NCBI RefSeq assembly: GCF_018219815.1
Contig: NZ_JADMKU010000005.1
Span: forward strand, 186,001 to 250,000
DNA: 64,000 nt
Origin: Thalassovita aquimarina
GTDB taxonomy: Bacteria > Pseudomonadota > Alphaproteobacteria > Rhodobacterales > Rhodobacteraceae
Direction: 5' to 3'
Of the stretch, positions 17,406 through 56,287 are shown piece after piece. A model generated the notes under the pieces. The model was not told the origin of the DNA and did not search any database. It worked only from the letters and a program-made list of their open reading frames with translations. Made by a program: the position numbers and the translations under genes. Each line of letters begins with the position of its first letter. The stretch's first letter is position 1.

Positions 17406-17468
17406 TCGGAATTCTCCCTTGTTGAGCGGCCTCTGACGGGCCTTTGCTCTCTTGCTTCACACGGTTCC

Positions 17469-17515
17469 TGACCGTATGGTCAAATTCACGACACCACAAC
17501 CTGACCAACCGGTCA
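17469..17515. promoter_or_regulatory. Two RutR-type operator palindromes
   Basis: TGACC-GTAT-GGTCA (17469-17482) and TGACC-AACC-GGTCA (17502-17515) stand 33 bases apart, start to start, between the divergent beta-ureidopropionase and rutR-like genes. Escherichia coli RutR binds TTGACCANNTGGTCAA, so both copies keep the TGACC/GGTCA half-sites with the right spacing. They are placed to control both directions, including autoregulation. Confidence 0.8.
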
Positions 17516-17541
17516 AGAAATTTTATCGGACAGATTTCTCT

Positions 17542-18177
17542 ATGGCCGCTCAACCGCGCACGAACAGCAAAAAAGAACGCCGTCAGGAAAACGAAAAGCT
17601 CATTTTGGCGGCAGCGGAAAAAGTCTTTTCCGAGGCGGGGTTCGGCGGCGCGACGATGCAGTTGATCGCCGATATGGCCGGGTTGCCCAAGGCGAACCTG
17701 CATTATTATTTCCCGACCAAGGAATCGCTTTACCGGCAGGTGGTGGAAAACATTTTCCAGTTCTGGCTGCAGGCGGCGGATGTGTTCGACGATGCCGACG
17801 ACCCGGCCGAGGGAATCGGCGCCTATATCGACGCCAAGATGGAAATCAGCCGCCGCCATCCGTCCGGATCGAAGGTCTGGGCGACCGAAGTGATGCACCG
17901 CGCGCCGGTGATCCAGGACTACCTGGAAACCACGCTGATGGAATGGACCGAGGGCCGCGCCGCGATCATCAACCGCTGGATCGCCGAAGGCCGGATGGAC
18001 CCGGTCGATCCCGACCACCTGCTCTATATGCTGTGGGCGACCACCCAGCACTACGCCGATTTCAGCCACCAGATCGAAACCCTGAACGGCGGCAAGCCGC
18101 TCGACGACGCGCAGTGGGAAGCGGCGAAGGCCAGCATCAAGCGCATCATCCTGAAAGGGATCGGGGTCACCGAATGA
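17542..18177 (+). CDS. TetR-family regulator, RutR-like (first of two)
   Basis: A 211-residue TetR protein. The HTH is at about residues 38-57 (IADMAGLPKANLHYYFPTKE), and the C-terminal domain contains WATTQHYADF, a stretch shared with E. coli RutR, the uracil/thymine-responsive repressor. The ATG at 17542 is chosen because starts further upstream would put the two operator palindromes inside the coding sequence; its ribosome-binding site is weak. It is divergent from the pyrimidine-catabolic operon and followed 65 bases on by a second RutR-like gene, so the pair probably shares control of pyrimidine breakdown and uptake. Confidence 0.88.
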   Translation: MAAQPRTNSKKERRQENEKLILAAAEKVFSEAGFGGATMQLIADMAGLPKANLHYYFPTKESLYRQVVENIFQFWLQAADVFDDADDPAEGIGAYIDAKMEISRRHPSGSKVWATEVMHRAPVIQDYLETTLMEWTEGRAAIINRWIAEGRMDPVDPDHLLYMLWATTQHYADFSHQIETLNGGKPLDDAQWEAAKASIKRIILKGIGVTE

Positions 18178-18242
18178 CGCGATTTCTGGACCATTCAAAA
18201 TGGCTGGGCTAGTCTAGCCGATCAGCCTGACCGGAGTAAGCG

Positions 18243-18866
18243 ATGGACGACGCGACGAAACCCGAGAAAAAGCCGAGCCGCATCCAGCTGCGCAATCGCA
18301 AGCGCATTCTTGAGGCGGCGCTAGACGTGTTTTCGCAGCATGGCTATCGCGGCGCGACGCTGGACCAGATCGCCGAGGCATCGGGACTGTCGAAACCGAA
18401 CATCCTGTATTATTTCGACGGCAAGGAAGCGATCCACGTCACGCTTTTGAACACGCTGATGGAAAACTGGCTCGATCCTCTGGCGAAGATGGATCCCGAA
18501 GGCGATCCACTGGAAGAAATCCTCGCCTACATCCACCGCAAGGTGCAGATGAGCCGCGAATTCCCCCGCGAAAGCCGGCTGTTTGCCAATGAAATCCTGC
18601 AGGGCGCCCCCAGGATGCGGCCGCATCTGGAGACCGGGCTCAAGACGCTGTTCGACGAAAAAACCACCCTGATCCAGCGCTGGATGGAAGAAGGCAAGCT
18701 GGCGCAATCTGATCCGCGGCACCTGGTTTTCTCGATCTGGGCGACCACCCAGCATTACGCCGATTTCGAAGTGCAGGTGTCGATCCTGACCGACGGGGAA
18801 GCCGACCCGGTTGAAGGGGCCGAAGCGTTTCTCGACAGCATGTACCGCAAGCTTCTGACCCCCTGA
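18243..18866 (+). CDS. rutR: TetR-family regulator, RutR-like (second of two)
   Basis: A 207-residue TetR protein, closer to E. coli RutR than its neighbour. The N-terminal ILEAALDVFSQHGYRGATLD and SGLSKPNILYYFDGKEA form the DNA-binding domain, and FSIWATTQHYADFEVQV in the ligand domain closely matches the RutR sequence as I recall it. A GGAG site precedes the ATG. It lies 65 bases after the first rutR-like gene and converges with preA. Whether the two form heterodimers, answer to different pyrimidines or divide the operons between them is not readable from sequence. Confidence 0.88.
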   Translation: MDDATKPEKKPSRIQLRNRKRILEAALDVFSQHGYRGATLDQIAEASGLSKPNILYYFDGKEAIHVTLLNTLMENWLDPLAKMDPEGDPLEEILAYIHRKVQMSREFPRESRLFANEILQGAPRMRPHLETGLKTLFDEKTTLIQRWMEEGKLAQSDPRHLVFSIWATTQHYADFEVQVSILTDGEADPVEGAEAFLDSMYRKLLTP

Positions 18867-19060: not shown

Positions 19061-19091
19061 AAATTGCGCGCCCGGACCGGGCGCGCAATTT
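19061..19091 (-). terminator. Very strong hairpin at the end of preA
   Basis: Two perfect 15-base arms (AAATTGCGCGCCCGG and its complement) are separated by one base. The stem begins at the first base of the preA stop codon on the plus strand. On the minus strand only a short T-rich tail (AATTTGACTTG) follows, so it may stop transcription weakly and mainly shield the mRNA 3' end. Confidence 0.65.
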
Positions 19092-20398
19092 CATTCGGCG
19101 GCGCAGGAATTTCCCGGATTGTTCGGGTGTTCCAGCCAATTGCCGTACTCTTCCGGCACCACCTCGCCGGTGCGTTCATCCAACCGCCCCGGCGCGACGC
19201 GTTCCATGGTGATGCAACCTTCGATCGGGCAGACGTTGACGCAGAGATTGCAGGCCACGCATTCATCATCCTTGACCGAGAACACCCGGCCTTCGGACAT
19301 GTCGATGGCCTGGTGGCTGGTATCTTCGCATGCGGCATAGCAACGGCCGCACTTGATGCAGGCGTCTTCGTCGATCTTGGCCTTGGTCACGTAGTTCAGG
19401 TTCAGATACTGCCAGTCGGTGACATTTGGCACCGCGCGGCCGACCAGTTCCGAGGTCGAGGTGAACCCCTTGCGGTCCATGTAGTCGCTGAGGCCCGAAA
19501 TCATTTCCTGCACCACCTTGAACCCGTAGGTCATCGCCGCGGTGCAGACCTGCACGTTGCCGGCGCCAAGCGCCATGAATTCCGCCGCGTCGCGCCAGGT
19601 GGTCACGCCGCCGATGCCGGACATCGGCAGGTTCGCGGTTTCGGGGTTGCGGGCGATTTCCGCCACCATGTTCAGCGCGATCGGCTTCACCGCCGGGCCG
19701 CAATAGCCGCCATGGGTCCCCTTGCCGTCGATCGTCGGTTCGGGGGCGAAATCGTCCAGGTCGACGCTGGTGATCGAGTTAATCGTGTTGATCAGGCTGA
19801 CCGCGTCGGCACCGCCGCGCTTGGCCGCCTCGGCCGGCTTGCGCACGTCGGTGATGTTCGGGGTCAGTTTCACGATGCAGGGCATGCGCGAATGTTTCTT
19901 CACCCAGCGGGTCACCATTTCGATATATTCGGGCACCTGCCCCACCGCCGCGCCCATGCCGCGTTCAGCCATGCCGTGCGGGCAGCCGAAGTTCAGCTCG
20001 ACGCCATCGGCACCGGTGTCCTCGATCTGCTTCAGGATGGTTTCCCAGCTGGTTTCGTCGCACGGCACCATCAGCGAAATGATCAGCGCGCGATCAGGGT
20101 AGTCGCGTTTCACCGACTTGATTTCACGCAGGTTCACTTCCAGCGGGCGGTCGGTGATCAGTTCGATATTGTTGAGCCCCAGAAGGCGGCGGTCAGCGCC
20201 CCAGATCGCGCCGTAGCGCGGGCCGTTGACGTTGACCACCGGCGGGCCTTCGGAACCGAGTGTTTTCCAAACGACGCCGCCCCATCCGGCTTCGAAGGCA
20301 CGGCGGACGTTGTATTCCTTGTCCGTCGGCGGCGCCGAGGCGAGCCAGAACGGGTTGGGGGATTTGATCCCGATGAATTCGCTTGCGAGATTGGCCAT
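19091..20398 (-). CDS. preA: NAD-dependent dihydropyrimidine dehydrogenase, subunit PreA
   Basis: A 435-residue protein with a dihydroorotate-dehydrogenase-like FMN barrel (about residues 1-320) and a C-terminal two-cluster ferredoxin domain (CIKCGRCYAAC and CVACNLCVNVCPIEGC). ELNFGCPHGMAERGMG holds the conserved loop of the pyrimidine-binding site. With PreT it reduces uracil and thymine to the dihydro forms using NADH. It starts 18 bases after the preT stop. In DPD-type enzymes FMN sits at the pyrimidine site and the Fe-S clusters link it to the FAD site on PreT. Length fits the family (about 410-435). Confidence 0.96.
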   Translation of the reverse strand: MANLASEFIGIKSPNPFWLASAPPTDKEYNVRRAFEAGWGGVVWKTLGSEGPPVVNVNGPRYGAIWGADRRLLGLNNIELITDRPLEVNLREIKSVKRDYPDRALIISLMVPCDETSWETILKQIEDTGADGVELNFGCPHGMAERGMGAAVGQVPEYIEMVTRWVKKHSRMPCIVKLTPNITDVRKPAEAAKRGGADAVSLINTINSITSVDLDDFAPEPTIDGKGTHGGYCGPAVKPIALNMVAEIARNPETANLPMSGIGGVTTWRDAAEFMALGAGNVQVCTAAMTYGFKVVQEMISGLSDYMDRKGFTSTSELVGRAVPNVTDWQYLNLNYVTKAKIDEDACIKCGRCYAACEDTSHQAIDMSEGRVFSVKDDECVACNLCVNVCPIEGCITMERVAPGRLDERTGEVVPEEYGNWLEHPNNPGNSCAAE

Positions 20399-20416: not shown

Positions 20417-21739
20417 TTACGCCGACAGGGCGACGTGAATGTCTTCAGCGGCGTCGCGGCCTTCGGCCACCGCCGTCACGGTCAGATCTTCGCCACCCGC
20501 GGCACAGTCGCCGCCGGCCCAGACGCCATCGATGCTGGTGCGGCCCGCGCCGGTGACGGCGATCTTGCCACCCTCCAGATCGGGCAGGTCGCTGCCGCCC
20601 AATGTCTGGCCAATCGCCTTGAACACTTGATCGGCGGCAAGCCGGAAGGTCTGACCGGTGGGCTTCAGATCGTCGTCGGTATATTCGAATTCGATCTCGC
20701 GCACCGCACCATTGCCGATCACCGATTTGGGCGAGGCATTGGTGATGATCCGCACGCCCTTGGAGGCCGCCAGGTCCTGTTCGAACACGCTCGCGTTCAT
20801 CCGGTCACGGCCACGGCGATAGACGAGGCTGACATTCAACGCGCCAAGCAGCTTGGCCTGCACCGCGGCGTCCACCGCGGTCATGCCGCCGCCGATCACC
20901 ACCACGTCGCGGCCGATTTCGACCGAAGCGATGTCCCCGGCCTGACGCAGGTCGGAAATGAAATCGACCGCGTCGAGAACGCCATCCTTGTCTTCGCCCT
21001 CGACCCGCATCGCATTTACACCTGCCAGGCCGATCGCGAGGAACACCGCGTCATGATCGGCCTTCAGCTGATCCAGTGACAGACCGTTGCCGAGAGATTT
21101 GCCGTTCTCGACGGTGATCCCGCCGATCTGCAGCAGCCACTCGACTTCCTTCGCGGCGAACCCGTCGACCGATTTGTAGCTGGCGATGCCGTATTCGTTC
21201 AGCCCGCCCGGCTTGGGCCGCGCGTCATAAACGGAAACGTCGTGCCCCTTCATCGCCAGGCGGTGGGCGCAGGACAAGCCCGCCGGCCCGGCACCGACGA
21301 CGGCGATTTTCTTCCCCGTCGCCGCCGCGCGTTCGAACGGATGCGCGCCGGTGGCCATCAGGGTGTCGGTGGCATAGCGCTGCAGGTTGCCGATCTCGAC
21401 CGGCTTGCCCTCGGCGGTTTCGCGCACGCAGACCTGTTCGCACAGGGTTTCGGTCGGACAGACCCGGGCGCACATGCCGCCCAGGATGTTCTGCGACAGG
21501 ATCGTCTTGGCCGCCGCTTCGGGCGTTCCGGTGGCGATCTGCCGGATGAACAGGGGAATGTCGATGTCGGTCGGACAGGCCGTGGCGCAGGGCGCGTCAT
21601 GGCAGAAATAGCAGCGGTCCGCCGCTACCAGCGCTTCGTGACCGTCGAGCGGTGGATGCAGGTCCGAAAAGTTGTCCGACAACTGATCCGCCGGCAACCG
21701 TCCTGCAACGATGCCTGGCGTCAGTGCGTTTGAAGTCAT
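20417..21739 (-). CDS. preT: NAD-dependent dihydropyrimidine dehydrogenase, subunit PreT
   Basis: A 440-residue glutamate-synthase-small-subunit-like flavoprotein. Cysteines for two N-terminal Fe-S clusters are in CYFCHDAPCATACPTDIDIP and CARVCPTETLCEQVC; the FAD site is VVGAGPAGLSCAHRLA, and VVIGGGMTAVDAA is the NADH-binding site. It takes electrons from NADH and hands them to PreA. The ATG at 21739 is chosen, four codons inside the longest frame, because GGAGGTAACA stands directly before it. The gene is divergent from the reductive dehalogenase gene, 200 bases apart. Confidence 0.95.
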   Translation of the reverse strand: MTSNALTPGIVAGRLPADQLSDNFSDLHPPLDGHEALVAADRCYFCHDAPCATACPTDIDIPLFIRQIATGTPEAAAKTILSQNILGGMCARVCPTETLCEQVCVRETAEGKPVEIGNLQRYATDTLMATGAHPFERAAATGKKIAVVGAGPAGLSCAHRLAMKGHDVSVYDARPKPGGLNEYGIASYKSVDGFAAKEVEWLLQIGGITVENGKSLGNGLSLDQLKADHDAVFLAIGLAGVNAMRVEGEDKDGVLDAVDFISDLRQAGDIASVEIGRDVVVIGGGMTAVDAAVQAKLLGALNVSLVYRRGRDRMNASVFEQDLAASKGVRIITNASPKSVIGNGAVREIEFEYTDDDLKPTGQTFRLAADQVFKAIGQTLGGSDLPDLEGGKIAVTGAGRTSIDGVWAGGDCAAGGEDLTVTAVAEGRDAAEDIHVALSA

Positions 21740-21794
21740 TGTTACCTCCACTGAGCTTGGTGTTTTTTCTTTTCAGTATGTCCGTATCAATTTT

Positions 21795-21810
21795 TTTATC
21801 AACTGGTAAA
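21795..21810. promoter_or_regulatory. Degenerate RutR-like box upstream of preT
   Basis: TTTATCAACTGGTAAA matches 13 of 16 positions of the E. coli RutR consensus TTGACCANNTGGTCAA (the two N positions counted as matches) and lies about 55 bases upstream of preT in the preT/rdhA divergent region. The surrounding sequence is AT-rich, so a chance match cannot be excluded. A second small hairpin, TGCCTG-AAAAA-CAGGCA, stands at 21850-21866 on the rdhA side. Confidence 0.45.
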
Positions 21811-21939
21811 ATTTAAAAAACGACGCGCTCAGGCCGGTTTCTTGCATACTGCCTGAAAAACAGGCAAAGCGGCTGAGGTCTGCCGAACCGGGGCAACGTA
21901 ACCGGGCCGACCCAAAAGCCGAAGACAGGAGGAGATGTC

Positions 21940-24900
21940 ATGGGGCTGCGTTTCTTTTCGACCAAGGACCGACCCGTGCATATGGGGGCCTACCCGCTGG
22001 AACGGTTGACCCGGCAGGATACGCCTGCCGACCTCGATTCCGTTCCCCGCTGGACGCCGGCTTCCTTCCGCCGCCCGGACGCGCCGGAAAGCATCGTCAA
22101 CGCGATGGGCGAATATCAGGCGATGCTGGATGCGATCCGCGACGGCATGGTGAACAAGACCCGCGCCACGATCCCGTCGGACCCGCAGGAACGATCCAAC
22201 CATCTGAAGTCATTTGGCTATTTTTCGGATGCCAGCATGGTTGGCATCTGCCGACTGCCCGATGCGGCGCGGCTGGATGACCCCGTCCGCAATCCCGACA
22301 TCGACCGCCTGGCCGAGGAACTGCGCACCCGCCAGACCAAGACGCTGGCCTCGGGCATCGACGTGATCATGGCCGAGCTGAAAGAGGCCATGGAGGCCCC
22401 GCCCTCGGGCATCGACGGGCACAAATATGCGCTGGTTTTCCTTTACGAATACCCCCGCGATCCGGACAACGGCGACCCCGGAACCGACTGGATCGCCGAC
22501 GCGCAGGCACAACGCGCCTGTTTGCGCGCCAACGAAACCGCCGCGGTTCTCGCCAACTACATCCGGTTGCTGGGGTGGCAGGCGAAAGCCCATTCCGGCG
22601 CGTCTTCGGACGTTGATCTGAACCGGCTTGCGGTCGCGGCGGGGTTGGCCACGGTCGAAGACGGCGCATTGGTCGCGCCCTGGATCGGTCCGCGATTCGG
22701 CGTCGCGGCGGTCACTTGCGATCTTGAGCTGGTCGCGGACGCACCGCTGGCGCCGATGGCAGAGCAGCCGTGGTTCAGCACCAAGGGCCCGGCCTGGTGG
22801 CTGGGCAAGGGATTTGCCAAATCGGCGCTGAACCGCGATCCCTTCGCCAAGCGCCACTTTGCCGACGGCCCGCACCCGTTCGAACGGCTGAAACGGGTCG
22901 AAGACCCGACCACCTATATCGACGAACCCAACGTGGCCCGGGTGCCGAAACGCGCCGACATGTTCGCCCGTGCCCAGTTCGGCGACATGGGCAAGAACGT
23001 GCAGGACAATGCCAAGGGCGGGCATTATGCCCGCAAATCCGCCCCCAGCTTCGCACAGCGCCGGGCGCTCGGGGCCTTCGTGGTGATCCAGAACGGCGAT
23101 CCGAATCCGCACGGCCAGCGCCCCGACGACCCGCAGCAAAACGCCGCCAACATCAAGGCGGCCAGCTACTTCCTCGGCGTCGACGCGGTCGGCCTCAGCC
23201 GCTGCCCCGACTGGGCGTGGTACAGCCACGACGCCGCCGGTGATCCGATCGACCCGCCGCACGATCAGGCAATCAGCATGATCATCGACCAAGGCTACGA
23301 AACGATGGAAGGCGCCAGCGGCGACGACTGGATTTCCGTCGCCCAGTCGATGCGCGCCTACCTGCGGTTTTCGCTGCTGGGCGGGGTGATCGCCAAGCAG
23401 ATCCGCAACCTTGGCTACAGTGCCAAGGCCCATACTGTGATGGACGGCGAGGTGCTGCAACCGCCGCTGCTGCTGCTGTCCGGCCTGGGCGAGGTCAGCC
23501 GTATCGGCGAGGTGATCCTGAACCCCTATCTGGGCCCGCGGCTGAAATCCGGGGTGGTGACCACCGACATGCCGATGGCGCATGACAAGCCGATCGATTT
23601 CGGGCTGCAGAAGTTCTGCGAAGCCTGCAACAAATGCGCCCGCGAATGCCCCTCGGGGGCGATCACCGCCGGGCCGAAGCTGATGTTCAACGGCTACGAA
23701 ATCTGGAAATCCGACAGCCAGAAATGCGCCACCTACCGGATCACCACCGAAGGCGGCGCGATGTGCGGGCGCTGCATGAAAACCTGCCCGTGGAACCTTG
23801 AAGGGCTGTTTTCCGAAGCGCCGTTCCGCTGGGCGGCCTCCAACATTCCCGCACTGGCGCGCCCCTTGGCTAAGCTCGACGATGCCGTCGGCAATGGCGG
23901 GCTGAACGACACCAAGAAATGGTGGTGGGACATCGAATTGCAGGACGATGGCGGCTACCACCCGTCGCAACATCCGCTGAACCGGCGCGATTTGCAGATC
24001 GAAATCGACCTGAAGTACGAAGACCAGACGCTGGCCGTCTATCCCGCGCCCTTGGCGCCGCCGCCCTGGCCCTACCCGTTCCCGATGGACCGCGAAGCGG
24101 GGATTGCCGCCTACGAGCAGATGGTTACGGCCGAAGAATACCGCGACCGCCTGGCCAAGGGCGATATGTCGGTCGTGCACCGCTACACCACCCCCAGCGA
24201 CCCGCCGGTGATCCGGGTCGAGGTCAGCAAGGTGGAAAAGATGACGCCGGACGTGACCAAGTACGAATTCTCCACGCTCGACGGCGGCCCCCTGCCCGAC
24301 TGGTCGGCGGGGGCACATCTGGACGTTCTCGTCGCGCCGGAATTCCTGCGGCAATATTCGATGTCGGGCGATCCGGCGGACCAGACGAAATACCAGATCG
24401 GTGTGCTGCGGGAAGACGAAGGCCGCGGCGGGTCGAAGCTGATGCACCGGATTTTCAACGAAGGGCGCAAGGTCTTCATCTCGAAACCGATCGGGCATTT
24501 CCCGCTGGACGAAACCGCGACGAAAACCTTCCTGATGGGCGGCGGCATCGGCGTCACACCGATGATCGCCTTTGCCCACCGGCTGCACGCACTGGGCCGC
24601 GATTTCGCGCTGCATTATTCGTGTTCGTCGCGCGCTTCGGCCGGGTATCTGGACGATCTGGCGCGCATGCCCTGGGCAGACAAGGTGCATTACCACTTCA
24701 GCGACGAAGGTAGCCGCGCCGATCTCGACGCGGTGCTGGGGGAATACCAACCCGGCTGGCACGTCTATACCTGCGGGCCGGATCGCTACATGAACGGTGT
24801 GATCGAGGCCGCCACCCGGCAGGGTTTCCCAGAAGAGGCGCGGCACTTGGAATATTTCAGCGTCCCGGAACAGCCGGAATACGAAAACCATCCCTTCACC

Positions 24901-25152
24901 CTGCGACTGAAGGACGGCCGGGAATTGCTGGTGCCCGAGGACAAGAGCGCCTCGGACGTGTTGCTGGGAAACGGCATCCATGTAGACGTGAAATGTTCCG
25001 ACGGCATCTGCGGCGTCTGCAAATGCGGATTGGTCAGCGGCGCGGTCGAACACCGCGATTTCGTGCTGTCGAACAAGCAGCGGGAAAACACCATCATCCT
25101 GTGCCAGTCCCGCGCGGCCGACCCCGATGGCGTCGTGGAAATAGACCTCTAG
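21940..25152 (+). CDS. rdhA: Self-sufficient cytoplasmic reductive dehalogenase fused to an FMN/[2Fe-2S] oxidoreductase
   Basis: A 1070-residue fusion. Residues 1-690 form a cobalamin-dependent reductive dehalogenase with two [4Fe-4S] sites: C560-C563-C566-C570 (FCEACNKCARECPSG) and C596-C609-C612-C616 (MCGRCMKTCPWN). Residues about 755-1070 are a phthalate-dioxygenase-reductase-like module: FMN motif RQYSMSG (804-810), NAD(P)H motif GGGIGVTPM (867-875) and plant-type [2Fe-2S] cysteines C1019, C1024, C1027, C1055. There is no Tat signal and no partner membrane anchor, so it is cytoplasmic, as in BhbA (Comamonas) and NpRdhA (Nitratireductor), which remove halogen from halo-hydroxybenzoates. 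Y428 lies where NpRdhA has its catalytic Y426. The N-terminal part shows an internal duplication (about 95-262 versus 409-547). An AGGAGGAG site precedes the ATG. The substrate, probably a halogenated phenolic acid, is inferred from the family. Confidence 0.95.
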   Translation: MGLRFFSTKDRPVHMGAYPLERLTRQDTPADLDSVPRWTPASFRRPDAPESIVNAMGEYQAMLDAIRDGMVNKTRATIPSDPQERSNHLKSFGYFSDASMVGICRLPDAARLDDPVRNPDIDRLAEELRTRQTKTLASGIDVIMAELKEAMEAPPSGIDGHKYALVFLYEYPRDPDNGDPGTDWIADAQAQRACLRANETAAVLANYIRLLGWQAKAHSGASSDVDLNRLAVAAGLATVEDGALVAPWIGPRFGVAAVTCDLELVADAPLAPMAEQPWFSTKGPAWWLGKGFAKSALNRDPFAKRHFADGPHPFERLKRVEDPTTYIDEPNVARVPKRADMFARAQFGDMGKNVQDNAKGGHYARKSAPSFAQRRALGAFVVIQNGDPNPHGQRPDDPQQNAANIKAASYFLGVDAVGLSRCPDWAWYSHDAAGDPIDPPHDQAISMIIDQGYETMEGASGDDWISVAQSMRAYLRFSLLGGVIAKQIRNLGYSAKAHTVMDGEVLQPPLLLLSGLGEVSRIGEVILNPYLGPRLKSGVVTTDMPMAHDKPIDFGLQKFCEACNKCARECPSGAITAGPKLMFNGYEIWKSDSQKCATYRITTEGGAMCGRCMKTCPWNLEGLFSEAPFRWAASNIPALARPLAKLDDAVGNGGLNDTKKWWWDIELQDDGGYHPSQHPLNRRDLQIEIDLKYEDQTLAVYPAPLAPPPWPYPFPMDREAGIAAYEQMVTAEEYRDRLAKGDMSVVHRYTTPSDPPVIRVEVSKVEKMTPDVTKYEFSTLDGGPLPDWSAGAHLDVLVAPEFLRQYSMSGDPADQTKYQIGVLREDEGRGGSKLMHRIFNEGRKVFISKPIGHFPLDETATKTFLMGGGIGVTPMIAFAHRLHALGRDFALHYSCSSRASAGYLDDLARMPWADKVHYHFSDEGSRADLDAVLGEYQPGWHVYTCGPDRYMNGVIEAATRQGFPEEARHLEYFSVPEQPEYENHPFTLRLKDGRELLVPEDKSASDVLLGNGIHVDVKCSDGICGVCKCGLVSGAVEHRDFVLSNKQRENTIILCQSRAADPDGVVEIDL

Positions 25153-25203
25153 CCCGAAAAAAGGGCAGCACCGTCACCACGATGAGACATTCGCAGGGTA
25201 AAG

Positions 25204-25229
25204 TTTGCTCCGCAGTTGCGGAACAAACG
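25204..25229. promoter_or_regulatory. Palindromic operator candidate before the TetR gene
   Basis: GTTTGCTCCGCA-GT-TGCGGAACAAAC has 12-base arms with one mismatch and ends 21 bases before the tetR ATG. The size and symmetry suit a TetR dimer, pointing to autoregulation. I see no second copy in front of rdhA. Confidence 0.6.
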
Positions 25230-25250: not shown

Positions 25251-25802
25251 ATGACCGCCAAGAAACGCCTTTCGAAATCCGACTGGTTGCAAGCCGGGTT
25301 CGCCGCTCTCGTCGAAGAAGGCCCGACCGCGCTGAAGGCCGAACCGCTGGCGCGGCGGCTGAAGACGACCAAGGGGTCCTTCTACTGGCATTTCGCCGAT
25401 GTGCCGGCCTTTCACGCCGCGCTGCTGGACGTATGGGAAGCCGAAGCGCTGTCGCCGATTGCCCGGATCGTGGAAGAAGAATCCAGTTCCGGCGCCAAGC
25501 TGCGCCGGCTCGGCCAGGACATCACCGACTATGCCAGCGACGTCACCGCCGACAAAAATCCCGAACGCGCCATCCGCGCCTGGGCGCAGGGCGATGGCGG
25601 CGTGGCCGACCGGGTGGCAAAGGTCGACGGGCTGCGGCTGAACCTTCTGTCGGAACTGCTGCGCGACAACGGCATCACCAATCCCGATTGGGCCCGGGTG
25701 ATCCTTGGGTCGACGATCGGCATCAAGAGCCTGCCGGCCAACGCAAACGATACGGGCGGGCCGATGGGATCACTGGTCGATCTGGTTCTCGCCCTGCGCT
25801 GA
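25251..25802 (+). CDS. TetR-family regulator linked to the reductive dehalogenase gene
   Basis: A 183-residue TetR protein. The N-terminal HTH includes [18 protein letters not shown] (about residues 34-51), and the C-terminal domain is unfamiliar. It starts 98 bases after rdhA in the same direction, with a GGGGTGAG ribosome-binding region, and a good palindrome stands before it. Its last 33 bases overlap the 3' end of recO on the other strand. Control of rdhA is an inference from position; the palindrome suggests at least self-control. Confidence 0.85.
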
Positions 25803-42488: not shown

Positions 42489-42983
42489 TCAGCGCAGCTT
42501 GCGCGCCTTCTTGATCAGCATATCGCGTTTCACCCGGCTCAGATGGTCGAAATACATCTTGCCGTTCAGATGGTCGATCTGATGTTGTACGCTGGTCGCC
42601 CAGAGCCCGACGAAATCGCGTTCCTCGACCTCGCCCGCCTCGTTCAGGAACCGCACCGTCACCGCGCGCGGGCGGCTGATCGTGGCGTGGACGCCGGGCA
42701 GGTTGGGGCTGGCTTCGTCATGGTCGCGCAGCTGCACGCTGGCGTGCAGGATTTCGGGGTTCGCCATGCGCACGGGCTTGCCGCGCTCCTCGCTGGCATC
42801 GACCACCGCCAGGCGCTGCATCACGCCGATCTGCACCGCGGCCAGACCGACGCCGGGCATCGCCTCCATCGTGTCGATCATGTCGTCCCAGGTGGCGCGC
42901 ACCTCGTCGGTGATTTCCGCCACCGGTTCGGCCGGCGTTTTCAGCCGCTTGTCGGGCCAGGGCAGGCATTTGCGCACGGTCAT
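42489..42983 (-). CDS. Peptide deformylase-like protein with degenerate active site
   Basis: A 164-residue deformylase-fold protein. Motif 1 is kept ([10 protein letters not shown]), but the cysteine of the EGCLS motif is replaced (EASPNLPGV; serine at the cysteine position in my alignment) and the HExxH helix reads QHQIDHLNG, with glutamine for the catalytic glutamate. Both changes should remove metal-dependent deformylase activity. It overlaps the preceding def gene by ATGA. Possible roles are a regulatory or peptide-binding partner, or a gene in decay; its intact frame and tight packing favour a kept function. Confidence 0.85.
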
Positions 42984-43995: not shown

Positions 43996-44242
43996 GACAG
44001 TGGATTTAGGGTATGGTCCCCATACCTGCAATGGGCCATTGTTTCGGCAAGCATCGGCACAAAACAGCCATATAGAAAAATGGCCCGAATATTCAATTGC
44101 ATCAAGTACGATTTCCCTAAATTTAGAAAAAATCGAGATCACTCTTCCAATTTTTATGCATATATTGGAATTTTGACCCGACAATGACTTAATGCCGGCA
44201 TTCCCGGCAGGCAACACTGCGACACATCCAAGGAGACCCCGA

Positions 44243-45862: not shown

Positions 45863-46633
45863 TCATTTTGCCGACGCTTTCGGACGCAACACGTGCGGCA
45901 TCGCCGGGTCGTACAGCGCCGAATCCTTGAAATCGCGGACATCGCCCAGAACCGGACCGACCAGAATCAGCGCCGTCCGGGTGATTTTTTCCGCCCGCAC
46001 CTTGCCGTGGATGTCCGAAAGCGTGCCGCGAATGAACATCTGGTCCGGCCAGCCGACGCGATAGGCCACGACCACCGGACAATCGGCCCCGTAATGCGGC
46101 GAAAGCTGCCGCTCGATCTCGCGCAGGTTCCGCACGCCGAGGTGAATCGCCAGCGTCGCGCCGGTGCGCGCGAAGTTTTCCAGCGTTTCGCCCGACGGCA
46201 TCGCGGTGGATTTCATCGATACCCGGGTCAGAACGATCGACTGCGCAAGTTCCGGCACGGTCAGTTCCTGCCCCAATGCGGCGGCGGCGGCGGCATAAGC
46301 GGGCACGCCGGGGATGATTTCATAGGGAATGCCCTCGGCCCTGAGCCGCCGGATCTGTTCGGCGATCGCGCCGTAAAGCGACGGATCGCCCGAATGCACC
46401 CGCGCCACGTCCTGCCCCCGCGCATGCGCCGCTTTGATCTCCGCATGGGTGTCGTCCAGCGTCATCGGCGCGGTATCCATCACCTTCGCCCCCTCGGGTG
46501 CGCAGGCCACCACCTCGGGCGGCACCAGCGATCCGGCATACAGGCAGACCGGACAGTCGCCGATCACCCGTTCGGCCTTCTTGGTCAACAATTCCGGGTC
46601 GCCTGGCCCCGCGCCGATGAAATAAACCGTCAT
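45863..46633 (-). CDS. cobM: Precorrin-4 C11-methyltransferase
   Basis: A 256-residue SAM-dependent methyltransferase of the CobM/CbiF group. VYFIGAGPGDPELLTKKAER at the start and HSGDPSLYGAIAEQ are the family blocks of tetrapyrrole methylases, and CLYAGSLVPPE is typical for the C11 enzyme. The ATG at 46633 is chosen from the family start MTVYFIGAG; the open frame extends into the previous gene. It is the last gene of the minus-strand corrin operon; a cobalt-bearing substrate (CbiF type) cannot be excluded. Confidence 0.94.
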   Translation of the reverse strand: MTVYFIGAGPGDPELLTKKAERVIGDCPVCLYAGSLVPPEVVACAPEGAKVMDTAPMTLDDTHAEIKAAHARGQDVARVHSGDPSLYGAIAEQIRRLRAEGIPYEIIPGVPAYAAAAAALGQELTVPELAQSIVLTRVSMKSTAMPSGETLENFARTGATLAIHLGVRNLREIERQLSPHYGADCPVVVAYRVGWPDQMFIRGTLSDIHGKVRAEKITRTALILVGPVLGDVRDFKDSALYDPAMPHVLRPKASAK

Positions 46634-46667
46634 GCCAGAGCTTCCCTTTTCACTGTTCCCAAAACGC

Positions 46668-48467
46668 TCACTGCGCCGCATCCGCCGCCAGGTCGCCGTC
46701 GATCTTGCGGGCATAGCCGCGCGGCGTGAACATGCGCGGGCCTTCGCCCAGATGCGCCAGCCGCGAATTGCTCGACCCGACCAGCACCACCGTCAGCATA
46801 TCGACCTCGTCCACTTCCAGTTCGTCCAGCCGGCGATAGCGCACGTGTTCCTCCGGCCGTCCCAGTGACGACGCCAGCATCACCGGCGTATCGGCCGGAC
46901 GGTGCTGCAACAGGATATCGCGCGCCTCGGCCAGCAGGGTGCGCCGCGTCTTTGATACCGGGTTATAGAAGGCGATGACGAAATCGCCCTCCGCCGCCGC
47001 CTTCAGCCGCCGCAGGATATCGTCGCGCGGGGTCAGCAGGTCGCTCAGCGAAATGGTGCAGAAATCGTGGCCCAAGGGCGCCCCGGCCCGTGCCGCCGCC
47101 CCCTGCAGCGCCGAAACGCCGGGGGAACAGATCACCTCGACCCGGTGCGCGGCATCGCTCACCCCGTGCTCGTCAGGCCCGCGATCCAGCAGTTCGAACA
47201 CCAGCGCCCCCATTGCGTAGATCCCGGCATCCCCTGAACAGACCAGCGCCACGTTGCGTCCCTCGGCGGCGCGTTCCAGCGCATAGCGGCAGCGCGCCTC
47301 TTCCCCGCCCAGCGGAAAATCCGACCGGGTTTTGCCCGCGGCCAGCGGCCCCAACAGATCGATATAAAGCCCGTAGCCGACCAGTTCCTCGGCTTCGGCC
47401 ACCAGCTTCGACACTTCCGGCGTGCGCCAGGATGCCTGCCCGGGCCCGATCCCCACCACGCTCAGCCGGCCACGCGCCCGGCCCGGCAGTTCGGTGAGCG
47501 GCGCCTCGGTCCGCGACAGGGCGCAGGTGCAATTGGCGGCTTTCTGTTTCTCGACCACCAAACTGCCTCCGCATGCCAAAGCCGCGCCTTCGCTGACGCC
47601 ATGGCAGCCGACCTCGGCAAAGACCACCTCGGACGGGTTCGGCACATCCTGCGCCTCCAGTTCCGCTGCCGTGTACAGTCGCAACGGCACGCCCAGCCGC
47701 CGCGCCACTTCGTTCATCGCCGGCTCATCCGCCTTCAGGTCGATCGAGGCAACGCAGGCCACCGCTTCCGGCGCGATCCCGGCCTGGTCCAATGTTCCGG
47801 ACACCAGCTCCCACATCTCCTCCGGATCGGCATTGCGGGCGCAACCCAGCCCCAGCACATGGCGCTGAGGACGATAGACCAGCCGATCTTCGCTTGCCCG
47901 CTCGGGCGCCTCGCTGACCACCAGTTCGACCGCGCCGCCAGCATCCTCGATCCCGAAGATATTCTCGCCCACCACCGACACGCCCGCGCCCGACAGAAGC
48001 GCCGCCATCGCGCCCTTGGCATCCTGTGGATTTGCGAGCCGGTAGCCAACGGGCGGTTCGTCCAATGCCACCCCCATCGCCACATCTCCCGCCGTGGTCA
48101 CCGCCGCGACGGCATCCAACGCCTGCGCCACCTGCCGGGCCAGCCGGTTCGCGCCGCGATGCCCGCCCAACAGCGGCACCACCACCGACCCGTCGTCGGA
48201 TACCGACAACACCGGCGGCTCGACCCGCTTGTCGCCCAGCAACGGCGCCACCGCCCGGATCAGGATGCCCGATGCGCAGACCCCCAGCACCGGCACCCCG
48301 GCGGCGAACAGGTCGCGCACGTGGTCCAGCGCATTGGGAAAAAACGCATCTGCCTGCGCCACGCGCCCCTCGCGCCCATGCAAATCAGCACCCAAGGCGT
48401 CGGCCAGCTTGCGCGCGGTCGCTTCGCCGGAGGCGTTCAGCGCCAGAACAACGGGTTTCACAGCCAT
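46668..48467 (-). CDS. cobJ: CbiG-CobJ fusion: cobalt-precorrin-5A hydrolase domain plus precorrin-3B C17-methyltransferase
   Basis: A 599-residue two-domain protein. Residues 1 to about 325 resemble full-length CbiG (central GVCASGILIRAVAP and PLLGGHRGANRLAR, then the C-terminal CobE-like part with GLGCARNADPEE and FAEVGCHGVSEGAALAC), which in the cobalt-early pathway opens the delta-lactone and releases acetaldehyde. Residues about 333-599 are the ring-contracting CobJ/CbiH methyltransferase (LSVVGIGPGQ, CSGDAGIYAMGAL, FCTISLSDLLTPRDDI, FYNPVSKTRR). It overlaps cobI by ten bases. The CbiG part makes it uncertain whether this operon follows the oxygen-dependent or the cobalt-early route. Confidence 0.93.
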   Translation of the reverse strand: MAVKPVVLALNASGEATARKLADALGADLHGREGRVAQADAFFPNALDHVRDLFAAGVPVLGVCASGILIRAVAPLLGDKRVEPPVLSVSDDGSVVVPLLGGHRGANRLARQVAQALDAVAAVTTAGDVAMGVALDEPPVGYRLANPQDAKGAMAALLSGAGVSVVGENIFGIEDAGGAVELVVSEAPERASEDRLVYRPQRHVLGLGCARNADPEEMWELVSGTLDQAGIAPEAVACVASIDLKADEPAMNEVARRLGVPLRLYTAAELEAQDVPNPSEVVFAEVGCHGVSEGAALACGGSLVVEKQKAANCTCALSRTEAPLTELPGRARGRLSVVGIGPGQASWRTPEVSKLVAEAEELVGYGLYIDLLGPLAAGKTRSDFPLGGEEARCRYALERAAEGRNVALVCSGDAGIYAMGALVFELLDRGPDEHGVSDAAHRVEVICSPGVSALQGAAARAGAPLGHDFCTISLSDLLTPRDDILRRLKAAAEGDFVIAFYNPVSKTRRTLLAEARDILLQHRPADTPVMLASSLGRPEEHVRYRRLDELEVDEVDMLTVVLVGSSNSRLAHLGEGPRMFTPRGYARKIDGDLAADAAQ

Positions 48468-49159
48468 GGATCGGCCCCCTTCGTCAGTAAGATCATCGAA
48501 AAATACGGCGCTTTTTCCGGCGCCTCGGACAGCGGGCAGATGCGCTCCTCGGGCAGGCTGGCCCGTTCGACGTAAACCGCACTTTCGGTCAGCCCCAGTT
48601 CAGCGATTACGCCACGGATCTTGGCCAGGTGCCGCCCGACCTTCATGATGACGACGCTCTCGGCGCCCTCGATCCGGCTCCGCAACTCGGCCTCGGGCAA
48701 GGGTCCGGGCAACACCGTCAGCCGCTCGTTGCGCGCCGCCAGCGGCACCCCGGCGCGGCCCGCGCAGGCGGTGATGCTAGTCACGCCGGGCACCACTTCG
48801 ACCTCGAACCGCCCGGACAGCCGGGCATGTAGATACATGAAGGAACCATAGAAGAACGGATCGCCCTCGCAGAGGCAGATCACGTCCTCGCCCGCCTCCA
48901 GCGCCGTGGCGATCTGCGCCGCGCCCGCGTCATAGGCCGCCTGCGCCGGGCCGCGTTCCACCGTCATCGGCACGTCCATGACGATTTCGCGCGCCCCTTC
49001 CGGGATCGCGGCGGCGGCGATGGCGCGGGCGAAACTGTCCGACCCGGACAGCGCCGGATAGGCCACCACGCGGGCCTGCGACACCAGCCGATGGGCCTTC
49101 AGCGTCATCAGCTCGGGGTCCCCCGGCCCCAGCCCGACGCCATAGAGCTTACCGGCCAT
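48458..49159 (-). CDS. cobI: Precorrin-2 C20-methyltransferase
   Basis: A 233-residue tetrapyrrole methylase. KLYGVGLGPGDPELMTLKAH at the start and LCEGDPFFYGSFMYLHARL (about residues 98-116) are typical of CobI/CbiL, which methylates C20 of precorrin-2 or its cobalt form. The end overlaps the cobJ fusion gene by ten bases. About 65 bases separate it from cobL, holding a short diverged copy of the intergenic repeat. Confidence 0.94.
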   Translation of the reverse strand: MAGKLYGVGLGPGDPELMTLKAHRLVSQARVVAYPALSGSDSFARAIAAAAIPEGAREIVMDVPMTVERGPAQAAYDAGAAQIATALEAGEDVICLCEGDPFFYGSFMYLHARLSGRFEVEVVPGVTSITACAGRAGVPLAARNERLTVLPGPLPEAELRSRIEGAESVVIMKVGRHLAKIRGVIAELGLTESAVYVERASLPEERICPLSEAPEKAPYFSMILLTKGADPWL

Positions 49160-49174
49160 GTTCCGCCCCCAGCC

Positions 49175-49209
49175 ACTTTTTCTTGGCCCAAATCCCCCCG
49201 CCGGAGGCG
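49175..49209. repeat. Diverged intergenic repeat between cobL and cobI
   Basis: CTTTTTCTTGGCCCAAATCC followed by CCCCGCCGGAGGCG resembles the right arm at 18991-19024 (CTTCTTCTGTTTTCAAATAT, CCCCGCCGGAGGC). The match is partial, so membership in the same repeat family is probable, not certain. Confidence 0.45.
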
Positions 49210-49225
49210 TCCCGCCCTTGCCAAT

Positions 49226-50428
49226 TCATCGCTTGATCAGGCTCCACTGCGTCACCGGCATCAACGGCCGCCAGCCGGTGCGCGGCCCGACCGGTTCGGC
49301 CCGTTGCACCTGTATCTTGACCAACTGGCCGCCGAACTCGGCCTGCAGCGCGACCAGCACCGCCTCGCTTTCCAGCGTAACCGCGTTGGCCACCAGCCGC
49401 CCCAGCGGGCGCAGCGCCGCCCAGGCCGCCTCGAACACCTCACGGCTCAGCCCACCGCCGATGAATACCGCATCAGGGGCCTCCAGCCCTTTCAGCGCCT
49501 CGGGCACCCGCCCATCGATCAGCTGCAGTTTCGGCGTCCCCAAAGCCAGCGCATTGGCCGCCGCCATCGCGCGGCGGTCGGCGCGCGGCTCGATCCCGAT
49601 GGCGCGGGCGTAGCGCGCGCCGCGCATCCATTCCACCGCCACTGATCCGCATCCCGTTCCGATATCCCACAGCAGCGCCCCGCGCATCGGCATCAGCTTG
49701 GCCAGTGTCGCCGCGCGCACCTCCTGCTTGGTCATGGTGCCGTCATGCTGAAACAGATCGTCGGCCAGCCCCGGCACCCGGGGCAGCAGCGCCGCGTCCG
49801 GCGCGGCGACGCAATCGACCGCCAGCGTGTTGAAATCCGGCACCTCGTGATCCCAGCTTTCCGCCACCCCGTCGAACCGCGCCTCGCTCTCCCCGCCCAT
49901 ATTGGCCAGCACCGTCATCTTCGAACGACCGAAGCCGCGCTCGGTCAGGAAGGCCGCGATCTGCCCCGGCGTATGCGCCCCGGTGGTCAGGATCAGGAGC
50001 CGCGCATCGGGCTGGATGAAGGCGATCATCTGTTCGACCGGGCGCCCGTGCACGGTGAGCGTTTCGACATCCGCCAGGCTCCAACCCATCCGCGCGGCGG
50101 CCAGCTGGAACGCCGAGAGCTGCGGGTGATAGGTAATCTCGGACGGATCGATCGACCGCCCGATCCGGGCACCGACGGAAAACCACAAGGGATCGCCGGT
50201 GGCCAGCACCACCACGCGCCGCCCCTTCATCGCCTGCAGCATGTCGATCAGCGCGTCGAAGGGCGACGGCCAGGCGACCCGCTCGGCGGTCACCGTACCC
50301 GACAGGTCATGATGCCGGTCGCCGCCGACGATCACCTCCGCCGCCTCGACCACCGCACGGGTGGCGGGCAAGAGCCCCTCCAGCCCGTCCTCACCGATAC
50401 CCACGATATGCAACCACGGTTCAGCCAT
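49226..50428 (-). CDS. cobL: Precorrin-6B C5,15-methyltransferase (decarboxylating)
   Basis: A 400-residue fusion of CbiE-like (about residues 1-195) and CbiT-like (about 205-400) halves, the standard CobL layout. LHIVGIGEDGLEGL opens the C5-methylase half, and KQEVRAATLAKLMPMRGALL with DIGTGCGSVAVEWMR forms the SAM site of the C15-methylating/decarboxylating half. Its start overlaps the end of cobH by eight bases. Confidence 0.95.
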   Translation of the reverse strand: MAEPWLHIVGIGEDGLEGLLPATRAVVEAAEVIVGGDRHHDLSGTVTAERVAWPSPFDALIDMLQAMKGRRVVVLATGDPLWFSVGARIGRSIDPSEITYHPQLSAFQLAAARMGWSLADVETLTVHGRPVEQMIAFIQPDARLLILTTGAHTPGQIAAFLTERGFGRSKMTVLANMGGESEARFDGVAESWDHEVPDFNTLAVDCVAAPDAALLPRVPGLADDLFQHDGTMTKQEVRAATLAKLMPMRGALLWDIGTGCGSVAVEWMRGARYARAIGIEPRADRRAMAAANALALGTPKLQLIDGRVPEALKGLEAPDAVFIGGGLSREVFEAAWAALRPLGRLVANAVTLESEAVLVALQAEFGGQLVKIQVQRAEPVGPRTGWRPLMPVTQWSLIKR

Positions 50429-51071
50429 GTTCAGCCTCCTTTTCCTCCGGCAATCCTGCCGCCAGCGCGTTCACCGCCGCCGAGGCGATCGCCGATCCGC
50501 CGCGCCGTCCGCGCAACGCCACGAAATCACAGCCGCGCGCATTGGCGGCCAGTTCCGCCTTGCTTTCCGCCGCCCCGACGAAACCCACCGGGAAGCCCAG
50601 GATCAGCGCCGGCTTCGGCGCCCCCTGATCGATCAGTTCCAGCAGGTGAAACAGCGCCGTCGGCGCGTTGCCCACCGCCACCACGGCGCCGTCCAGCCGG
50701 TCGGCCCACAGTTCCACCGCCGCCGCCGAGCGGGTATTGCCGATCCCCGCCGCGATCCCCGGCACGCGCGAATCGTTCAGCGTCACCACCACCTCGTTTT
50801 CCTTGGGCAGGTAACGGCGGATGATCCCGGCGCCGACCATTTCGCAATCGCACAACACCGGCGCACCGGCCAGCAGCGCGTCGCGCCCGGCCTCATAGGC
50901 GTCCGGCGAAAAGGCCAGCCGGTCGGCCACCTCCACCATGCCGCAGGCGTGGATCAGCCGGATCGCCAGCGCCTGCATCCCCGGCCCGAACCGGTCGAGT
51001 CGCGCTTCGTTCCGCACCGTCGCGAAGGACTGCGCATAGATCGCCGAGGGATTCTTTTCGTATGGGCGCAT
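50421..51071 (-). CDS. cobH: Precorrin-8X methylmutase
   Basis: A 216-residue enzyme moving a methyl group from C11 to C12 to give hydrogenobyrinate (or cobyrinate). MRPYEKNPSAIYAQSFATVR is the family start, and the catalytic histidine is H41 in IRLIHACGMVEVAD. The ATG at 51071 is used instead of the longer frame. It lies between cbiX and cobL, about 110 bases from cbiX. Confidence 0.95.
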   Translation of the reverse strand: MRPYEKNPSAIYAQSFATVRNEARLDRFGPGMQALAIRLIHACGMVEVADRLAFSPDAYEAGRDALLAGAPVLCDCEMVGAGIIRRYLPKENEVVVTLNDSRVPGIAAGIGNTRSAAAVELWADRLDGAVVAVGNAPTALFHLLELIDQGAPKPALILGFPVGFVGAAESKAELAANARGCDFVALRGRRGGSAIASAAVNALAAGLPEEKEAEHG

Positions 51072-51182
51072 GGCGCTCGGTCTCCGTTGGGTTCCTTCCC
51101 CCGGACCGGGGGAAGGACAGGATGGGGGTCGATGCGGAATGCGAAGCCCATCGGGCTTCACAATGGGGTCAATGCCCCGGGC

Positions 51183-54455: not shown

Positions 54456-55394
54456 ATGGCCTTGCCGCAGCGCGATCACGGCGGGGGAATAGACGCGGCA
54501 GCGGCCCGCTACGGCGGCACGCGTGCAGACTGGATCGACCTGTCGACCGGCATCAACCCGGCGCCCTACCCGGTTTCCGGCATTCCAGCCGACGCCTGGA
54601 CAGCCCTGCCCGACAGCGCCGCCGCGCAGGCGCTGACCGACGCGGCGCGGTCGTTCTGGCAGGTTCCGGACGGGGCCGCCATCCTGGCCGCGCCGGGGGC
54701 GTCATCGCTGATCGCCCGCATTCCGGCTCTGCGGCCTGCCGCCACCGTCGACATTCCCGCGCCCACCTACAACGAACATGCCGCCGCTTTCGCTGCGGCG
54801 GGCTGGCAAGTGTCGGACGACGCTCCGGCGGCACGTGTCATCGTGCATCCCAACAATCCAACCGGCCATTGGTACGCCGGTGAACCGGACGGGTTCGACC
54901 TGCATGTCATCGACGAAAGCTTCTGCGATGTGGCGCCGGACCGGTCTCTGATCGCTCATGCCACCCGCCCCGGCACACTGGTCCTGAAAAGCTTCGGCAA
55001 GTTCTGGGGCTTGGCCGGGCTGCGGCTGGGCTTCGCCATCGGCGATCCCGAGCTGATCGACCGCCTGGCGCAAATGCTCGGGCCCTGGCCGGTGTCGGGC
55101 CCGGCGCTGGCCATCGGCACGCGGGCGCTGACCGATGACGCCTGGGCCATCGCGACACGCACAAGACTGAACGAAGACGCCGCCCGGATGGACGCGCTGA
55201 TGACCCGCGCCGGGGCACGACTGTCGGGGGGCACCCCGCTGTTCCGGCTATACGATGTCGACAACGCCGCAAAGTGGCAGGACCGACTGGCGAAAGCGCA
55301 AATCTGGACCCGGACATTCCCTTATTCCGATACGCTGATCCGGCTTGGCCTGCCCGCCCCGGACCAGTGGCACAGGATGGAGGCGGCGCTGTGA
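54456..55394 (+). CDS. cobC: L-threonine-phosphate decarboxylase (cobalamin synthesis)
   Basis: A 312-residue PLP enzyme of the histidinol-phosphate-aminotransferase fold, making (R)-1-aminopropan-2-ol phosphate for the lower-ligand arm. [14 protein letters not shown] near the start and HPNNPTGHW are family blocks; the PLP lysine is in [20 protein letters not shown]. It follows DUF1636 by one base and overlaps cbiB by GTGA. In the Salmonella scheme the same enzyme is called CobD. Confidence 0.93.
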
Positions 55395-56287
55395 CCCTGG
55401 TGCTGGCGATGCTGCTGGATGCCGCAATGGGCGAACCGAAATGGCTGTGGTCGCGCTTTCCGCACCCTGCCATCCTGATGGGACGGGTGATCGGTTGGGC
55501 CGACGACCGTTTCAATCGCGGTGACCAGCGCCGCGCCAACGGCATCCTGACCATGACCGGGCTGGCCATCGGCGCCTTGGCTCTGGGCTGGCTGCTGTCG
55601 CTGTTCGGCCCGGTGGTGGAGATCGTCATCGCCGCGATCCTGTTTGCGCAACGCTCGCTGGTCGAACACGTGAAGGCGGTCGGAAATGCGCTGCGCCTGT
55701 CGGTGGGCGACGGCCGGATGAGCGTGGCGATGATCGTCGGGCGCGACACCAGCGAAATGGACGCCCCCGCCGTCAGTCGCGCCGCCATCGAAAGCGCGGC
55801 GGAGAATTTTTCCGACGGGGTGATCGCGCCCATCTTCTGGTTCGCCCTGCTCGGCCTGCCCGGGCTGCTGCTCTACAAGATCACCAATACCGCCGACAGC
55901 ATGATCGGCTATCGCACCCCTCGGCATAAAGACTTCGGCTGGGCCGCCGCCCGGTTCGACGACCTGCTGAACCTGATCCCCGCCCGGCTGACCGCGCTGC
56001 TGATCGCCCTGCCCCATCGCGTGCTGCGCGACTGGCCCGCGACCGTGCGCGATGCAAGGCGGCACCGCTCGCCCAATGCCGGCTGGCCCGAAGCGGCGAT
56101 GGCCCGCGCGATCGACGTGGCGCTGGCCGGGCCGCGTTCCTACGGTGGCGAGATGCGTGATTTTCCCTTCGTCCATCCCGAAGGGCGCGACGATATCGGC
56201 CCCGATGACATCGACGCCGCGACCCGCGTGTTGTGGACGGCGTGGAGCATCGCGCTGGCGCTGGCCTTCGCGGCCTCGCTGCTCTGA
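55391..56287 (+). CDS. cbiB: Adenosylcobinamide-phosphate synthase (CbiB/CobD)
   Basis: A 298-residue membrane enzyme that attaches aminopropanol phosphate to adenosylcobyrate. Hydrophobic helices lie near residues 1-15, 55-95, 150-175 and 275-298, and family blocks are [37 protein letters not shown] and [24 protein letters not shown] start at 55391, overlapping the cobC stop, is preferred to the long upstream frame because the protein then opens [15 protein letters not shown] as in relatives. Confidence 0.94.

Follow-up and report, generated by a model that had tools for sequence, protein, structure and literature searches.

The stretch of Thalassovita aquimarina DNA analysed here (64,000 nucleotides of contig NZ_JADMKU010000005.1, hereafter the window) carries rdhA, a gene for a predicted self-sufficient reductive dehalogenase, that is, one that would be fused to its own source of electrons. 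The stop-free frame of 1,070 residues occupies positions 21940–25152 of the + strand, exactly the coordinates and length given by the original prediction, which had been made from the letters alone. A 947-residue frame antisense to it matches no Pfam family (E 0.001), so the + frame is taken to be the gene. Its features are as follows (all on the + strand).

21927..21932, +: Shine-Dalgarno-like AGGAGG, 7 bases 5' of the rdhA ATG
21940..25152, +: rdhA, predicted self-sufficient reductive dehalogenase (translation, TIGR02486, NpRdhA structure match, BhbA match, active-site alignment)
22273..22416, +: residues 112–159, unaligned to NpRdhA (structure-sequence alignment)
23263..23892, +: residues 442–651, strongest match to the reductive dehalogenase family model (TIGR02486)
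23338..23361, +: residues 467–474 (V467, S470, M471, Y474), predicted pocket wall and proton-donor tyrosine (aligned to NpRdhA A419, S422, M423, Y426)
23545..23547, +: K536, equivalent of NpRdhA K488, predicted phenol binding and catalytic dyad (alignment)
23617..23787, +: residues 560–616, with the cysteines predicted to hold a pair of [4Fe-4S] clusters and with R600, equivalent of NpRdhA R552 (alignment)
24196..25137, +: residues 753–1066, phthalate dioxygenase reductase-like module for flavin mononucleotide (FMN), NAD(P)H and [2Fe-2S] (2pia match)
24994..25104, +: residues 1019–1055, plant-type [2Fe-2S] cysteines C1019, C1024, C1027 and C1055 (alignment, Pfam)

The protein scores 211.8 bits against the reductive dehalogenase model TIGR02486 (cut-off 160.35), and its best match among solved structures is NpRdhA (E ~3e-163, residues 2–111 and 160–738), along whose chain the alignment points to the same duplicated cobalamin-domain layout. 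The intervening residues 112–159 may be the counterpart of a fusion-specific insert described for JtRdhA of Jhaorihella thermophila (PMC10463259). The eight [4Fe-4S] cysteines (C560, C563, C566, C570, C596, C609, C612 and C616) lie where the original prediction had placed them and are invariant across 25 aligned sequences. Towards the C-terminus, phthalate dioxygenase reductase (2pia) matches residues 750–1066 at 189.7 bits, and a Fer2 domain is matched as well. The proposed fusion, in which an FMN/NAD(P)H/[2Fe-2S] reductase follows a B12/2x[4Fe-4S] dehalogenase in one chain, is borne out by the TIGR02486, NpRdhA and 2pia matches.

Two other identities within reach of these matches have to be weighed. 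Epoxyqueuosine reductase (QueG) finds some echo in a weak match to TIGR00276, and greater similarity to that enzyme was named at the outset as a ground for giving up the prediction. The match is worth 22.9 bits against a cut-off of 200, the protein is far closer to RdhA (211.8 bits), and a QueG identity is excluded, its residual probability being negligible. A respiratory reductive dehalogenase would belong to the same superfamily, and PceA matches residues 466–661. Set against this are the fused NAD(P)H reductase, an N-terminus in which neither a twin-arginine motif nor a hydrophobic stretch was seen by eye, and adjoining genes that are preT-like and TetR-like, with no RdhB membrane anchor among them. 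A respiratory enzyme is accordingly most improbable, and the earlier statement that a twin-arginine translocation (Tat) signal and an anchor gene are both missing agrees with what we see.

Active site and proposed reaction

The six residues named as the NpRdhA active site (F291, S422, M423, Y426, K488 and R552; PMC10463259, most also in PMC7565698) were followed through an alignment of the NpRdhA chain with 104 distinct sequences, including the window protein and BhbA. All six are identical in 104/104 sequences, the window equivalents being F342, S470, M471, Y474, K536 and R600; loss of active-site residues, a second ground on which the prediction might have fallen, is thus not observed for these six. 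The pocket wall is more variable. NpRdhA A419 is replaced by V467 in the window protein, as by Val in 101/104 sequences, and F290 by M341 (Met in 97/104); the counterparts of F310 and K307, namely Y363 and A358, are less sure, as they lie beside an alignment gap and K359 is next to A358. The AlphaFold model of the protein has a mean predicted local distance difference test score (pLDDT) of 64.4, falling below 50 across much of the active-site region.

The position of A419 differs further among relatives, being Ser in BhbA and in Nitratireductor OM-1, and Gly in a second rdhA copy of this same genome. That copy, which the original prediction did not mention, lies on contig C65, matches the window copy at 55% and falls outside the window-gene clade in a quick tree, on a long branch that leaves its placement unsure. 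According to the NpRdhA authors, A419 lies in the substrate pocket and an A419M exchange shifted the substrate range with some success, so the Val and Gly of the two copies suggest that their ranges may differ; such unlike pocket walls in one genome offer a natural test of substrate selectivity. Upstream of the second copy, a LuxR-type helix-turn-helix (HTH) gene (L114:10992-12038, PF00196) overlaps the region on the opposite strand.

From the sequence family, the domain order, the cofactor and active-site residues, and the adjacency to pobA in other genera described below, we infer that this organism dehalogenates phenolic compounds. The protein is likely to be a cytoplasmic, self-sufficient catabolic reductive dehalogenase, with bromo- and iodo-phenolics of the 4-hydroxybenzoate type as the likeliest substrates and with its product passing to 4-hydroxybenzoate catabolism. 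The parts of this reading differ in strength. Family and mechanism are, on the matches above, almost certainly as proposed, and an ortho-halophenol substrate is highly probable; that the 4-hydroxybenzoate type is the main substrate we put at an even chance. Very likely the enzyme would remove Br or I from natural phenols inside the cell with NAD(P)H. In the proposed reaction, hydride from NAD(P)H would pass to the FMN of the C-terminal module, from which single electrons would travel through the [2Fe-2S] cluster and the two [4Fe-4S] clusters to reduce base-off cobalamin. S470, K536 and R600 would then hold the hydroxyl of a bound ortho-halophenol, the halogen of which would lie on the cobalt; Y474 would donate a proton, and the halide would leave.

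Gene settings and the pobA neighbourhood

Related loci number 479 in named genomes, and the best 80 were analysed (loci are designated L, genomes G and contigs C). These 80 are alphaproteobacterial, mostly Rhodobacteraceae/Roseobacteraceae, the closest relative of the window gene among them being that of Thalassovita gelatinovora (90%). Grouped by shared neighbours they form 31 contexts, loci with short flanks each counting as a context of their own. Two genes on each side, where sequence allowed, gave 116 close neighbours from the 31 contexts, and no NCBIfam family (E 1e-15, 1,038 families) is present in more than 4 of the 116, so there is no single partner family. The regulators next to rdhA vary as well: LysR (L009), GntR (L018), MarR in two annotated plasmids, and LuxR-type HTH genes standing divergent beside rdhA in L041, L065, L072 and L084. 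Aromatic-pathway neighbours above cut-off are LigK (L036), PcaG together with 3-oxoadipate:acetyl-CoA acetyltransferase (L023), and PcaC (L075); they come from ten proteins of six loci, chosen by eye and without a control set, of which 4/10 are above cut-off and six are below it or unmatched. In the Nitratireductor OM-1 plasmid, the rdhA relative and pobA are 3.4 kb apart, and ring-cleavage genes occupy the interval.

In a wider family sample (295 genomes from 294 genera), a search for rdhA at E 1e-60 matched 124/295 genomes, and dropping eight reductase-only matches left 116/295, still including the partial matches G033, G096, G160 and G212. Roughly two-fifths of the sampled genera carry the gene. 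Some matches are split or bear stops (G269:C1:2006484-2009686, G099:C4, G193:C12 and G096:C17), a pattern that could reflect decay or assembly breaks.

Because plasmid relatives lie near pobA or protocatechuate 4,5-dioxygenase genes, the same 295 genomes were searched for pobA (TIGR02360, E 1e-120), with preA as the comparison gene. With kinship and genome size ignored, pobA is found in 91/116 genomes with rdhA and 108/179 without (p 0.0014), and preA in 97/116 and 142/179 (p 0.45). In three genera rdhA directly adjoins pobA, each time in another orientation: divergent at 361 bp (G197), convergent at 246 bp (G073) and tandem at 89 bp (G227). These three rdhAs fall in separate clades of the quick tree, and at the second-halogen position each has Val, as the window gene does. 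Among the 150 pobA places listed, of which 69 are in rdhA-bearing genomes, three pairs within 400 bp compare with 0.013 expected, and five within 10.5 kb with 0.35 expected, for a 4.1-Mb genome and distances read by eye. At greater range, pobA lies ~10 kb from rdhA in G089, ~10 kb in G108 and ~17 kb in G169, next to pca genes in the first two and to lig genes in the third, all families above their cut-offs.

The adjacency in three genera is a new clue: it hints at the natural substrate and points to a concrete substrate class, halogenated 4-hydroxybenzoates. No earlier paper on rdhA–pobA adjacency was found by title in a literature search to which subscription journals were mostly closed, and the words halogen, bromo and dehalogen are absent from the main text of a study of 4-hydroxybenzoate use by roseobacters (PMC12442348).

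Several observations weigh against a 4-hydroxybenzoate-type substrate. In this genome pobA is on C26 and next to neither of the rdhA copies (C55 and C65), and at E 1e-120 pobA is missing from 25/116 rdhA-bearing genomes, including G076, the only other sampled genome of the genus. The closeness of the two genes came to attention once their co-occurrence had been searched; it was read by eye among the 150 pobA places listed and set against one control gene, and neither kinship nor genome size nor contig breaks enter the tests. In the pocket, NpRdhA K307, which forms a salt bridge in one benzoate pose, is the residue that aligns to A358 in the gapped stretch with K359 adjacent. JtRdhA, moreover, also accepts phenols without a carboxyl group (PMC10463259).

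An alternative, which shares the favoured chemistry and overlaps the favoured reading, is that rdhA acts as a lone gene wherever it has landed, its enzyme detoxifying halogenated phenols in general (of algal, sponge or pollution origin) with no fixed catabolic route. The genus-specific settings (31 contexts in the best 80 loci), the lack of a recurrent neighbouring family and the several families of neighbouring regulators would all fit such a role, as would the many phenols, one flame retardant included, that JtRdhA accepts (PMC10463259). The adjacency to pobA in three genera, with pca and lig genes near several relatives, speaks instead for a catabolic role, in part of the family at least, and we regard general detoxification as less likely than not.

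For a catabolic role, the host has suitable genes. Its pobA is above cut-off on C26, and C4 carries a homologue (83%) of the LigB-type class III extradiol dioxygenase found next to LigA in G169; PcaG has no match in this genome. The dehalogenated product would thus be passed to PobA and then, with a LigB-type dioxygenase present and PcaG not found, probably to protocatechuate 4,5-cleavage. Cobalamin biosynthesis genes, on which the original prediction was silent, begin ~20 kb downstream of rdhA within the window.

45863..51161, −: cobM, cobJ, cobI, cobL (CbiE/CbiT) and precorrin-8X methylmutase, all over curated cut-off
54456..56287, +: threonine-phosphate decarboxylase of the cobC/CobD type, falling just short of its cut-off, and CbiB-type synthase, exceeding its own

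A further gene, cobN, starts 1 kb beyond the window end. Given its own pobA, LigB-type protein and cob genes, this organism could use debrominated 4-hydroxybenzoate and probably makes the cofactor itself. If the catabolic reading is right, common marine heterotrophs would couple debromination or deiodination to the ordinary protocatechuate pathway. Between the two groups of cobalamin genes, 51183–52433 drew no NCBIfam match at 1e-25, and its end is rich in His; 42489–44310 holds two consecutive peptide deformylase genes, both above the TIGR00079 cut-off.

The pyrimidine cluster beside rdhA

In the window, rdhA abuts a cluster of pyrimidine genes, a setting absent from the original prediction, the order being pyrimidine genes, preT-like gene (divergent), rdhA, TetR gene and recO.

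14593–16056, −: dihydropyrimidinase (TIGR02033, over cut-off)
16155–17405, −: hydantoinase/carbamoylase-family hydrolase (TIGR01879, over cut-off)
19091..20398, −: preA, dihydropyrimidine dehydrogenase subunit (NF006183, 724.2 bits, cut-off 335)
20417..21751, −: preT-like, dihydropyrimidine dehydrogenase NAD(P)-binding subunit (Pfam Fer4_20 and Pyr_redox_2, place beside preA; NCBIfam all below cut-off)
25251..25802, +: tetR3, TetR-family regulator (PF00440, 25 bits, cut-off 24)

Together with two adjacent RutR-like TetR regulators at 17452–18866, both below the RutR cut-offs, the preT-like gene, preA, the carbamoylase-family hydrolase and dihydropyrimidinase resemble a gene set for the reductive catabolism of pyrimidines. 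Of the RutR-like pair, apparently the second alone is kept in several congeners. The called frames of preT and rdhA are separated by 188 bp, in which a single-copy imperfect 18-bp palindrome, TTTTATCAACTGGTAAAA (21794–21811), resembles a TetR-type operator. Between rdhA and the TetR gene, 25203–25228 holds an inverted repeat whose 12-nt arms are 92% complementary and 2 nt apart.

This arrangement invites the suggestion that rdhA has, in Thalassovita, been drawn into the pyrimidine regulon as a halopyrimidine dehalogenase, stripping 5-halouracils of Br or I ahead of ring reduction by PreTA. The head-to-head placement with preT and the operator-like palindrome between them would fit, the halogen of a 5-halouracil would sit next to a C–O, loosely as in an ortho-halophenol, and the pyrimidine-side location is common to all seven rdhA-bearing genomes among the nine of the genus (7/7 at the same site). 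If true, this would be a dehalogenase-assisted salvage route for halogen-damaged pyrimidines. The wider comparison speaks against it. Among the best 80 loci, some with short flanks, the preT–rdhA–tetR arrangement is confined to L005–L008, one context of 31; these four are three Thalassovita and one Thalassobius sp. of the same genus (G299), and are, judged by coordinates, the same genomes as G296, G295, G076 and G299, counted once here. The two congeners that have no rdhA (G297 and G298) keep preT, tetR3 and recO as neighbours with nothing of rdhA between, and the palindrome occurs in congeners whether or not they carry rdhA, both empty sites included. Nor is preA enriched with rdhA (p 0.45, above), and the two lie within 10.5 kb of each other in this genus only, the next nearest distance, read by eye, being ~14 kb in G270 (57 rdhA-bearing genomes among the 150 preA places listed). 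In the pocket, finally, the residues present are the ones by which the hydroxyl of a phenol is held. A literature search for bromouracil dehalogenation with dihydropyrimidine dehydrogenase in bacteria, with subscription journals mostly outside its scope, found no paper. On the empty sites, the restriction to one genus and the lack of preA enrichment, we rejected the halopyrimidine link as the main explanation and consider it very unlikely.

As far as visible, then, the pyrimidine link is positional, as the empty sites and the palindrome kept there indicate. Being retained where rdhA is absent, the palindrome more likely serves preT than rdhA, perhaps as the operator for the pyrimidine genes. 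The preT-like gene likewise neighbours tetR3 where rdhA is absent, and it is not counted within the dehalogenase system. The candidacy of tetR3 as a dedicated rdhA regulator is weakened in turn: in 6/21 tetR3 loci (L138, L139, L140, L142, L143 and L145) recO is close by and the 3.5 kb covered contain no rdhA match, and tetR3 is probably not specific to rdhA. In G041, rdhA, tetR3 and recO are neighbours as well; there (L156:3536-8536) rdhA stands between a molybdenum-hydroxylase-like pair (judged from translations) with an amidohydrolase (PF01979) and tetR3–recO.

Relation to characterised dehalogenases

The favoured reading of rdhA, as a catabolic dehalogenase of bromo- and iodo-phenolics, can be compared with four lines of previous work. 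BhbA and NpRdhA had been named together as sharing the layout of the window protein. For BhbA (Comamonas sp. 7D-2 plasmid pBHB, WP_015585978) this holds, since layout and catalytic residues are the same from end to end, at 50.6% identity by tblastn and 51.3% across 1,056 aligned residues. Its pocket wall has Ser, Phe and Ser where the window protein has Val467, Met341 and Tyr363 (the last beside a gap), and its gene lies near protocatechuate 4,5-dioxygenase genes on the plasmid, whereas the window rdhA lies by a pyrimidine cluster. NpRdhA (Nitratireductor pacificus, PDB 4RAS and 6ZXU), with 44% identity over 684 aligned residues and the same six active-site residues, is described in PMC10463259 as having no reductase domain, and here the claimed likeness of layout fails. 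It also differs at the pocket wall, where A419 stands against V467, F290 against M341 and, in a gapped part of the alignment, F310 against Y363 and K307 against A358.

Closer to home is JtRdhA (WP_104007082), which is likened to the window protein through its published description: it belongs to Rhodobacterales, is an RdhA-reductase fusion without a Tat signal, and keeps the key residues (PMC10463259). The purified enzyme carries out NADPH-driven dehalogenation of bromo- and iodo-phenols with or without oxygen. The chloro-analogues tried on it acted as inhibitors only, and for this reason the chlorinated substrates included in the original prediction are unsafe for the window protein. A Roseobacter debrominase was expressed in 2026, and its authors describe bhbA homologues as widespread in the Roseobacter clade (PMC13101508). 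Ros_A3X954 of Roseobacter sp. MED193 and A0A2T7UTL8 of Pararhodobacter aggregans are, by the same description, catabolic RdhAs of marine relatives that debrominate or deiodinate phenols. With JtRdhA of the same order and the Roseobacter debrominase already characterised, the system can no longer be called under-described, as it first was. The placement of rdhA beside pobA bears on what this known enzyme type may naturally do in marine bacteria; the window rdhA itself is a further member of an already characterised enzyme class.

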